Position numbers and translations under genes: made by a program. From NCBI GenBank assembly GCA_026647565.1, contig JAPKGU010000013.1, forward strand, positions 1 through 39,128: a DNA stretch of 39,128 nt. The letters are read 5' to 3'. Below the pieces are notes generated by a model, which saw only the letters and a list, made by a program, of their open reading frames with translations, did not search any database and was not told the DNA's origin. The stretch comes from Phycisphaerales bacterium (lineage in GTDB: Bacteria > Planctomycetota > Phycisphaerae > Phycisphaerales > UBA1924). Positions 3,080-32,570 of the stretch are shown here, one piece after another. Within the stretch, counting starts at the first letter, position 1, and each line of letters opens with the position of its first letter.

Positions 3080-3952
3080 TCATTCGATGTCGGAGTCTTC
3101 TTCCAACTCCCGCATCTTGTGCTGCATCTGTGCCTTCAGACGGGCCAGGATCGAAGAGTGCATCTGGCTGACGCGGGACTCGGAAAGAGCGAGCGTGGCT
3201 CCGATCTCCTTCATGGTCATCCCCTCGTAGTAGTAGAGGATCACGATGAGGCGTTCGGCCCGCGAGAGCCCCTTGGTCATCATCTCGCGGAGGTCTCGGC
3301 TCTGGAGGAGTTTCAGCGGGTTGCGCTGCGTCTCGTCGCGGATCACGTCGATCTCGCGCAGCTCGCGGGTTCCATCGGAGCCGAAGCACTTGCGCGTCAG
3401 ACTGATCGTGTTCACGGCGGTCGAGTCGCGCTTGTACTTCTCGAACTCATCCGGCGCGATGCCGAGGCGCAGCGCGACCTGATCGTCCGTCGCGGCCTGG
3501 CCCGATTCCATCTCGATCTTCTGGCGGGCGTGATCGACCTTGCTCGTGCGGTGGCGCACCAGGCGGGGCACCCAGTCCATGGAGCGGAGCTCATCGAGGA
3601 TCGCGCCGCGGATGCGCGGCGCGCAGTAGGTCTCGAACTTCACCTTGCGCTCGAGGTCGTACGCGTCGATCGCGTCCATCAGGCCAAAGAGGCCGGCGGA
3701 CATGAGGTCTTCCATGTCGACCTCGTCCGGCAGTCTCGCGTAGATCCGTTCAGCGTTGTAGCGCACCAGGGGAAGGAACTTCTCCATGAGATAGTTCCGC
3801 AGGTCCTGCGTCCGGCTCTTCTGGTACTCCTTCCAGACTTCCTCGATGGGCCACGACTCATAGGGCGATCCGGCGAGACACGACTCTGCGTGACGGGCCG
3901 CGTATCGGCCGTGCCCACGTACGCCATGACGCAACGATTTCGCTGCTGACAT
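3080..3952 (-). CDS. fliA: RNA polymerase sigma factor, FliA/WhiG family (sigma-28)
   Basis: RNYLMEKFLPLVRYNAERIYARLP, DLMSAGLFGLMDAIDAYD, RIRGAILDELRSMDWVPR, TMKEIGATLALSESRVSQMHSSILARLK. Start at MSAAKSLRHG. Confidence 0.95.
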   Translation of the reverse strand: MSAAKSLRHGVRGHGRYAARHAESCLAGSPYESWPIEEVWKEYQKSRTQDLRNYLMEKFLPLVRYNAERIYARLPDEVDMEDLMSAGLFGLMDAIDAYDLERKVKFETYCAPRIRGAILDELRSMDWVPRLVRHRTSKVDHARQKIEMESGQAATDDQVALRLGIAPDEFEKYKRDSTAVNTISLTRKCFGSDGTRELREIDVIRDETQRNPLKLLQSRDLREMMTKGLSRAERLIVILYYYEGMTMKEIGATLALSESRVSQMHSSILARLKAQMQHKMRELEEDSDIE

Positions 3953-4045
3953 CTGGTCCGCTCCTTGACCCTTGACGCCGATGTGCGCGAACCGCACACG
4001 GTGTCCCACTCATCGCCCGGGCCATCCTTGGCCGAACGTGCGGGG

Positions 4046-13410: not shown

Positions 13411-13800
13411 TCACGCGGGTCTCTTGACCCGCTCCTCCCCTTCCACAATCTCGCTGATCCGGACGCAGAAGTTGTCGTTCAGCACGAGGATCTCGCCCCT
13501 GGCGACGTGACGCTCGTTGACGTAGACGTCCACGGGATCTCCCGCGAGCTTCTCCAGTTCAACCACGGCGCCCTCGCCGAGTCGAAGCACGTCCTCCACG
13601 AGCATCCGGGTGCGTCCGAGCTCGATCTTGACGTTGAGCGTGACGTCCGAGAGCAGGTCCATGCCCCGGCCGGAGGGACCAAGTCCCTTGCCGTCGAGGG
13701 CTGGCATCTCGAACTTTGCGGGCTCGCCGGCGCCGGTCGGCTTCTTGGCCCCGGCATCGGTGGGCACCTGAGCAGTGTCTTTCGTGGTGTCGTCTGACAT
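13411..13800 (-). CDS. fliN: Flagellar motor switch protein FliN
   Basis: SpoA domain: LLSDVTLNVKIELGRTRMLVEDVLRLGEGAVVELEKLAGDPVDVYVNERHVARGEILVLNDNFCVRISEIV. Confidence 0.95.
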   Translation of the reverse strand: MSDDTTKDTAQVPTDAGAKKPTGAGEPAKFEMPALDGKGLGPSGRGMDLLSDVTLNVKIELGRTRMLVEDVLRLGEGAVVELEKLAGDPVDVYVNERHVARGEILVLNDNFCVRISEIVEGEERVKRPA

Positions 13801-13849: not shown

Positions 13850-13862
13850 CTGCTATCGGACG
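13850..13862 (-). promoter_or_regulatory. Recurrent CGTCCGATAGCAG element upstream of fliN-fliOPQR-flhBA
   Basis: 13-bp identity to the element at 32507-32519. Located in the fliL-fliN intergenic region, ~50 nt before the fliN ATG. Confidence 0.45.
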
Positions 13863-13962
13863 AAGGGGCCTTGCCGCGCCAGAATCGCCGGACGAACGCG
13901 CAATGATCGCGCGTCCCGAGCCGGACCTGCGCCTCTTGGATGGGAGGGGTGCGACGGAGCCG

Positions 13963-14528: not shown

Positions 14529-14837
14529 TTACGCGGCCTTGCGCTCCGAAACCGTGTCGGCACCGATCCGACCAACGACTGCGGCCCTCGATCGCTCATC
14601 ACGCGGCGCCGTCGCCAGTGCGATGATCGAGCCGAACGCCAGAACCGACATCGCCCCGCCCAGCATCTGGCCGACCGACCAAGACGGGGTCAGACCGATC
14701 GCCATGGCGACCATGCACACGCCTGCGAGCACAACCGCGAATCGCGAACGACCACGTAGCGCGTGCAAAGCCGGAAATCGGGCGCGAGCGACCATGGAGC
14801 GACTCCAAGCCCCGAACTCGCGGGGCCTTGGGGTCAT
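14529..14837 (-). CDS. Small putative two-TM protein upstream of fliL
   Basis: 102 aa; FAVVLAGVCMVAMAIGLTP and GGAMSVLAFGSIIALATA hydrophobic segments; same strand as fliL and 29 nt upstream of it. Confidence 0.5.
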   Translation of the reverse strand: MTPRPREFGAWSRSMVARARFPALHALRGRSRFAVVLAGVCMVAMAIGLTPSWSVGQMLGGAMSVLAFGSIIALATAPRDERSRAAVVGRIGADTVSERKAA

Positions 14838-14932
14838 CGGCGGTTCATGTTCGCGCCTTGACGGGGAGGTCCCGGAGACGCGCGGGGTCGCACGAATGCG
14901 CCGATCCGGAGACCGGACGCCATCGGAAGCTG

Positions 14933-14945
14933 ATGTTATCGGACG
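14933..14945 (-). promoter_or_regulatory. Recurrent CGTCCGATAACAT element upstream of small TM ORF-fliL
   Basis: Minus strand GGGTGATCGTCCGATAACAT. It differs at one base from GGGTGAACGTCCGATA at the 32.5-kb site. Confidence 0.45.
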
Positions 14946-25394: not shown

Positions 25395-25473
25395 CCGCCG
25401 GGCGACACCCGACAGGCGACCCCTACCTTCGGCAACAGTCGGTGCTTTGCTTCAAACCTGCGCACCCGATCGC

Positions 25474-25488
25474 GCACAAGCCGCGCCA
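25474..25488 (-). promoter_or_regulatory. Candidate sigma-54 -24/-12 promoter upstream of fliF
   Basis: Minus strand TGGCGCG-GCTT-GTGC, with GG-N10-GC spacing, in the fliE-fliF intergenic region. Confidence 0.7.
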
Positions 25489-32506: not shown

Positions 32507-32519
32507 CTGCTATCGGACG
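32507..32519 (-). promoter_or_regulatory. Recurrent CGTCCGATAGCAG element upstream of the TPR-FlgN-kinase-regulator operon
   Basis: Minus strand GGGTGAACGTCCGATAGCAG, ~90 nt upstream of the TPR ORF start. Confidence 0.45.
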
Positions 32520-32570
32520 TTCACCCACCCCATCTTGACGACCGGGACGACCCAGGAAACGGGAATCCGA

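Follow-up and report, generated by a model that had tools for sequence, protein, structure and literature searches.

The stretch of DNA analyzed here, 39,128 nucleotides (nt) of contig JAPKGU010000013.1 and in the following called the window, belongs to a planctomycete of the order Phycisphaerales, as judged by the relatives of its FliG, and carries its flagellar genes on the minus strand. The present analysis is concerned with a 13-bp motif that is repeated between these genes. A previous inspection of the letters (the sequence-only reading) had reported an exact pair and a third, near-identical copy, and all three were found where it had placed them on the minus strand: s1 (13862-13850) and s3 (32519-32507) are identical, and s2 (14945-14933) differs from them by two mismatches.

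Starting from s3, the gene order is TPR protein, flgN, histidine kinase, NtrC-type regulator, flgB, an open reading frame (ORF), fliE, fliF, fliG, fliH, fliI, fliJ, ORF, fliK, flgD, ORF and flgE. After flgE follow s2, an ORF of 102 amino acids and fliL, and from s1 onwards fliN, fliO, fliP, a small ORF at the fliQ position, fliR, flhB, flhA, flhF, a ParA/MinD-like ATPase, ORF and fliA. Gene boundaries were obtained with a codon-usage caller made for this analysis and do not represent a published annotation. The genome also contains flgM. Coordinates are collected in Table 1.

The conserved unit is shorter than the repeat

The repeated 13-mer alone has little meaning, because the window contains 266 distinct repeated 13-mers, and matches with up to three mismatches are not over-represented (14 versus 18.5 expected). 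It is, however, the sole repeated 13-mer with two fully intergenic copies, although 94% of the window is coding. The form CGTCCGATARNA occurs six times in the whole 3.94-Mb draft genome, three times within the window. For comparison we used three relatives of the same genus, G001, G002 and G003, which together with the window genome are referred to as the four genus genomes. The orthologous flagellar sites s2 and s3 are the sole genome-wide matches of CGTCCGATARNA in G001 and G003 and two of the four matches in G002; CGTCCGATARCA is identical at both sites in all four genus genomes, while the flanks have diverged. According to the sequence-only reading, a motif equally frequent in coding and intergenic DNA would have argued against a regulatory role, which is not the situation found in the flagellar DNA of the genus: TCCGATA[AG] is present 13 times in intergenic and three times in coding sequence, though this DNA is 86% coding.

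The full 13-mer was rejected as the unit. The s1 orthologues read TCCGATAGCG and ACCGATACCA and retain only NCCGATA, which is preceded by GGCAATATTGGCG in three of the four genus genomes and by GGCGATTCTGGCG in the window. Since these relatives keep the core only, the agreement of s1 and s3 over 13 bases is restricted to this genome and partly accidental; what has been conserved as a unit is NCCGATA. The earlier observation is confirmed in part.

A constant distance to an upstream TSAAG

At every spacing, we recorded how often NCCGAT[AG] follows TNAA, the spacing being the number of nt that separate TNAA from the -10 octamer; TSAAG-N15/16 corresponds to 16-17 nt in this count. Among the intergenic matches of the TNAAG form in the flagellar loci of the genus, 10 of 11 had a spacing of 16 or 17, and 16 of 23 did so in the family set, whereby the pattern had been formed by inspection of these genus and family loci before it was counted there. 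As an independent test served 77 further loci of the order, which were fetched later and not used in forming the pattern. Here, 37 of 73 same-strand intergenic matches fell on these two out of 22 spacings (binomial probability 9e-20, a value that overstates the evidence since related genomes are not independent observations). In coding DNA and on the opposite strand, the distribution of spacings is flat without any peak. The bipartite pattern was also counted genome-wide in 61 genomes, where in all cases, even in genomes with no flagellin match, it was more frequent than its reversed control; the count by itself was therefore not taken as evidence.

The bases that the search had left free are informative in the 48 collected sites, where position 2 of the -35 is C or G in 88%, position 5 (after TSAA) is G in 85% and an A follows CCGATR in 67%. 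Of these, the G at position 5 and the A after CCGATR emerged as in sigma-28 promoters and were counted as support for a sigma-28 reading; the invariance of CCGAT was set by the design of the search, whereas the flanking A's are emergent. For the lineage, the consensus TSAAG-N15/16-NCCGATAA was obtained; some operons deviate from it in the bases that follow CCGA.

Within the window, a matrix made from other genomes ranked s3 first, the site between flgE and fliL second, s2 18th and s1 41st, the low ranks of the last two being due to their missing -35. Across the four genus genomes s3 is kept as TSAAG-N16-TCCGATAGCA between diverged flanks, and all four possess a second, complete site of the form T[CT]AAG-N15-NCCGATG about 100 nt downstream of s2. 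The earlier statement that no TAAA-type -35 stands at the right distance is thus correct for s1 and s2, which have no TSAAG, and incorrect for s3, where TCAAG lies 16 nt before the -10 octamer in the best-scoring site of the window. The proposed resemblance of CCGATA to the -10 of sigma-28 promoters is well supported by phylogenetic footprinting and the constant spacing to TSAAG.

The same arrangement is widespread in the order. It is found order-wide upstream of the TPR-flgN unit, and also past flgE and before flbD-like, mot-position or fliL genes. At fliF the -10 reads NCCGAA, with 20 intergenic matches at one spacing versus 0-3 at every other across the genomes, nearly all of them directly preceding a fliF-sized gene; NCCGAC peaks at the spacing of these fliF-type sites too (18 matches). 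Flagellin represents a classical sigma-28 target, and second flagellin genes carry the promoter in five genomes from several families. Moreover, near fliA, a conserved TCAAG-N16-TCCGATAAG stands before a TolB-like beta-propeller gene, behind which lies a gene of unknown function; this can be regarded as a candidate further member of the regulon.

Table 1. Predicted promoter elements, palindromes and reference genes; positions refer to the window unless a genome is named
Feature	Position	Strand	Basis
fliA, encoding a factor of the sigma-28 family, towards the end of the fliN operon	3080..4009	-	TIGR02479 (FliA_WhiG), 230.8 bits, cut-off 189.6; PDB relatives FliA and WhiG
fliN, first gene past s1	13411..13800	-	PF01052, E 1.6e-23
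s1, named motif; putative -10 octamer TCCGATAG at 13860-13853, 50 nt before the fliN ATG; TGGCG (13881-13877) at the -35 place	13850..13862	-	Sequence; comparison of fliN upstream regions
Palindrome GCGC-N7-GCGC (minus strand: GCGCGATCATTGCGC), centred ~46 nt before CCGATA of s1; putative activator site	13898..13912	.	Palindrome counts
Predicted complete promoter TCAAG-N15-GCCGATGA, between flgE and fliL, absent from the sequence-only reading	14834..14861	-	Matrix rank 2; kept in G001-G003 as T[CT]AAG-N15-NCCGATG
s2, CGTCCGATAACAT; putative -10 TCCGATAA at 14943-14936, 14 nt past the flgE stop; degenerate -35	14933..14945	-	CGTCCGATAACA identical in the four genus genomes
Predicted complete promoter TGAAG-N16-GCCGAAGG, before fliF	25426..25454	-	Intergenic matches at one spacing across genomes
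Second palindrome copy (minus strand: GCGCGGCTTGTGCGC), preceding the predicted fliF promoter	25472..25486	.	Palindrome counts
s3, predicted complete promoter TCAAG-N16-TCCGATAG, before TPR protein-flgN-histidine kinase-NtrC-type regulator-flgB	32510..32538	-	Matrix rank 1 in the window; genus alignment; orthologous site order-wide at the same spacing
Candidate site before the TolB-like gene	G001:C1 ~2537.1 kb; G002:C32 ~21.3 kb; G003:C1 ~2020.9 kb		Sequence

The incomplete sites s1 and s2

Site s1 was compared in 29 fliN upstream regions. NCCGATR is present in 24 of them versus 2.7 in shuffled sequences, and most regions with this -10 show an AAAR block 21-23 nt further upstream. The TGGCG at the -35 place of s1 received a negative score. 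As a separate observation, four of the regions (L031, L034, L043, L047) conserve an AAAAGT block 22 nt before NCCGAT, which is like TAAAGTTT but too distant, exceeding the distance of a sigma-28 -35 by approximately half a helical turn.

The second conserved feature upstream of fliN is the palindrome GCGCA-N5-TGCGC, which was found with at least 9 of 10 bases in 14 of the 29 regions versus 0.55 in shuffles that, as for the -10, preserve base composition only. Its centre lies mostly 34-38, 43-46, 54-57 or 61-67 nt before CCGAT, i.e. at distances about one helical turn apart, a phasing that was recognized and is shown in one and the same data set. In a relaxed form, the palindrome is 9.6 times commoner in intergenic than in coding DNA of flagellar loci, and the two intergenic copies of the window stand before fliN and before fliF. 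Because a family-conserved -10 occurs beside a helically phased palindrome, we read s1 as a putative activator-dependent promoter of the FliA-encoding operon, and a bound activator in place of the -35 would be the simplest reading. A comparable situation exists at E. coli aer, an activator-dependent sigma-28 promoter with a CRP site centred at -49.5 (PMC2859248). The combination of a sigma-28-type -10 with an upstream palindromic activator site would be shared with s1 as proposed here; aer, however, retains a recognisable -35, and the palindrome GCGCA-N5-TGCGC is not a CRP site.

Site s2 has the best -10 score of the four sites and a poor -35 (CGATG, negative score); it is a conserved putative -10 with a degenerate -35 just past flgE. 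The described position of all copies ~50-100 nt before the first gene of a flagellar transcription unit needs to be modified: s2 follows closely on the flgE stop codon, the complete site about 100 nt downstream of it had gone unlisted, and the first gene of the s3 unit is that of the TPR protein. In three loci (L092, L098, L105), flgE ends with GGC CGA TAA, the last codons and the stop forming GCCGATAA itself, which may be a coincidence or a promoter -10 that overlaps the stop codon. Since neither s1 nor s2 has a recognisable -35 at the right distance, both were not filed as sigma-28 promoters and are only proposed to work like one.

Probable assignment to FliA

We consider it likely that CGTCCGATA serves as the -10 in flagellar promoters recognized by RNA polymerase with the cluster-encoded FliA (sigma-28). 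The E. coli sigma-28 consensus is TAAAGTTT-N11-GCCGATAA, i.e. with 15 nt from TAAA to the -10 octamer (PMC2859248). The sites described here share with this FliA/SigD system the -10 core CCGATAA, a TxAAG-form -35 at constant distance, the location before flagellar genes including second flagellin genes of five relatives, and a FliA family factor encoded in the cluster, the window protein scoring above the cut-off of that family. At s3 and the site between flgE and fliL, TCCGATAG and GCCGATGA match GCCGATAA at 6-7 of 8 bases, and TSAAG, which has four of five bases in common with TAAAG, takes its place consistently across the order. The two systems also differ, since in the Phycisphaerales the base before CCGAT is free and early operons (fliF, flgN-flgB) are preceded by the promoter, too. 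The E. coli-type spacing of 15 nt was found at neither of these two sites and is not preferred among the matches; the promoter was classed as a sigma-28 variant because its spacing is 16 or 17 and not 15. Promoters of the WhiG/FliA family in Actinobacteria belong to another phylum; in Actinoplanes missouriensis, flagellar promoters are reported to have been sought with TAAA and GCCGATAA, the TSAAG form being no part of the search (PMC8325347). The best PDB matches of the window FliA are 6pfv and 6pfj, listed only as 'RNA polymerase sigma factor', and the WhiG chain 7lq4 matches as well. Its top NCBIfam score is to the WhiG model, yet it stays below the cut-off of that model.

Several points weigh against the assignment to FliA. 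Compared with E. coli, position 2 of the -35 is C or G rather than A, and the distance from TNAA to the octamer is 1-2 nt longer. TSAAG at spacings 16-17 is absent from all 29 fliN regions, leaving s1 without a recognisable -35, and no constant -35 was seen at s2 across the four genus genomes. The first flagellin genes have no sigma-28 site within 320 nt upstream, the flagellin of the genus shows only a near match judged by eye, and upstream of flgM no clear site was detected. A genome-wide count of spacings in G003 without intergenic filter gave no peak. Furthermore, the genome contains 29 matches to sigma-70 region 2, i.e. other factors of the sigma-70 family exist.

Among the alternatives, the one that survives best, in our opinion still rather unlikely, states that s1 and also s2 are not sigma-28 promoters, and that the conserved CCGATA marks a different promoter type or a regulator site, of which the AAAR block and the palindrome would be further parts at fliN. 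It is favored by the missing TSAAG in the fliN regions, by the AAAR block at its regular distance and by the inconstant -35 of s2. However, in 24 of 29 genomes the gene is preceded, as far upstream as expected, by the NCCGAT core of the complete promoters, and the palindrome is in helical phase with this core, as expected for an activator that acts there. It is improbable that the promoters, though real, are served by a different sigma-70-family member of sigma-28-like specificity instead of the cluster FliA. The number of such factors in the genome and the somewhat deviating spacer and -35 would allow it, but the cluster FliA scores as a family member and matches at the fixed spacing are found predominantly in flagellar loci and before second flagellin genes. 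Regarding the earlier suggestion of another sigma factor or an unknown regulator, an unrelated sigma factor is not needed at s3, whereas an additional regulator is likely at s1. The operons could also have sigma-54 promoters activated by the NtrC-type regulator, with CCGATA being incidental. The presence of rpoN in the genus, the regulator gene in the s3 operon and the palindromes before fliN and fliF as its possible sites are compatible with this idea, which we nevertheless regard as very unlikely, given that in the genus genomes a relaxed TGGCAC-N5-TTGCW pattern has no intergenic match before fliF or fliN and only a single match in the flgE-fliL gap of G001 that is not common to the other three. 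An extracytoplasmic function (ECF)-type -10 (CGTC with an AAC -35) was rejected by eye; CGT before CCGAT is limited to the genus and a few relatives. Finally, a chance recurrence of a 13-mer in GC-rich DNA, to which the many repeated 13-mers, the lacking excess of near matches and the loss of the s1-s3 identity in relatives would fit, is hardly credible in view of the two intergenic copies, the unaltered s2 and s3 in four genomes and the constant distance to TSAAG; for s2 and s3, being conserved elements, chance is refuted, and for the length beyond the core it stands.

Further observations in the flagellar loci

Flagellin leaders share CAATCACGGAGGATTG directly upstream of the ATG (L106-L135), in which the Shine-Dalgarno sequence is placed within a potential hairpin that has a CsrA-type CANGGANG, and in G003 (C1, ~2094-2098 kb) fliW- and csrA-like genes precede flagellin. 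Because of this leader and these neighboring genes, the sequences suggest FliW-CsrA control of flagellin. A tyrosine recombinase gene is located on the other strand near fliA (88-1026 in the window), and XerC/D-like genes flank the flagellar and flagellin clusters of G003 too.

Implications for flagellar gene control

With FliA as the most likely reader, s3 and the sites before fliF and between flgE and fliL would be complete FliA promoters, at which transcription would start. Site s1 would provide the -10 for the promoter of the fliN...fliA operon and, being without TSAAG, probably needs an activator on the phased GCGCA-N5-TGCGC. Since fliA is situated near the end of this operon, FliA expression would, through s1, come under a promoter whose -10 is of the FliA type. 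Likewise, s3 and the fliF site would bring early basal-body genes under FliA, an expectation derived from promoter sequence only.

In the RpoN-using systems covered by one review, FliA drives the late genes (PMC3930126). Predicted sigma-28-type promoters before early operons (fliF, flgN-flgB, fliN...fliA), as seen in this order, are unusual, and our literature search yielded no work on the control of flagellar genes in Phycisphaerae. Tentatively, and with more doubt than for the promoters themselves, we suggest that FliA of the Phycisphaerales may not be a late-gene factor and may instead drive the whole flagellar regulon, from the MS ring gene fliF and the flgN-flgB unit to its own fliN...fliA operon, whereby an activator binding GCGCA-N5-TGCGC in helical phase would start the positive loop. 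If true, the conserved TSAAG-N15/16-NCCGATAA before early and late operons would depart from the usual late-only use of sigma-28, and would predict a self-amplifying FliA loop that is gated by an activator.
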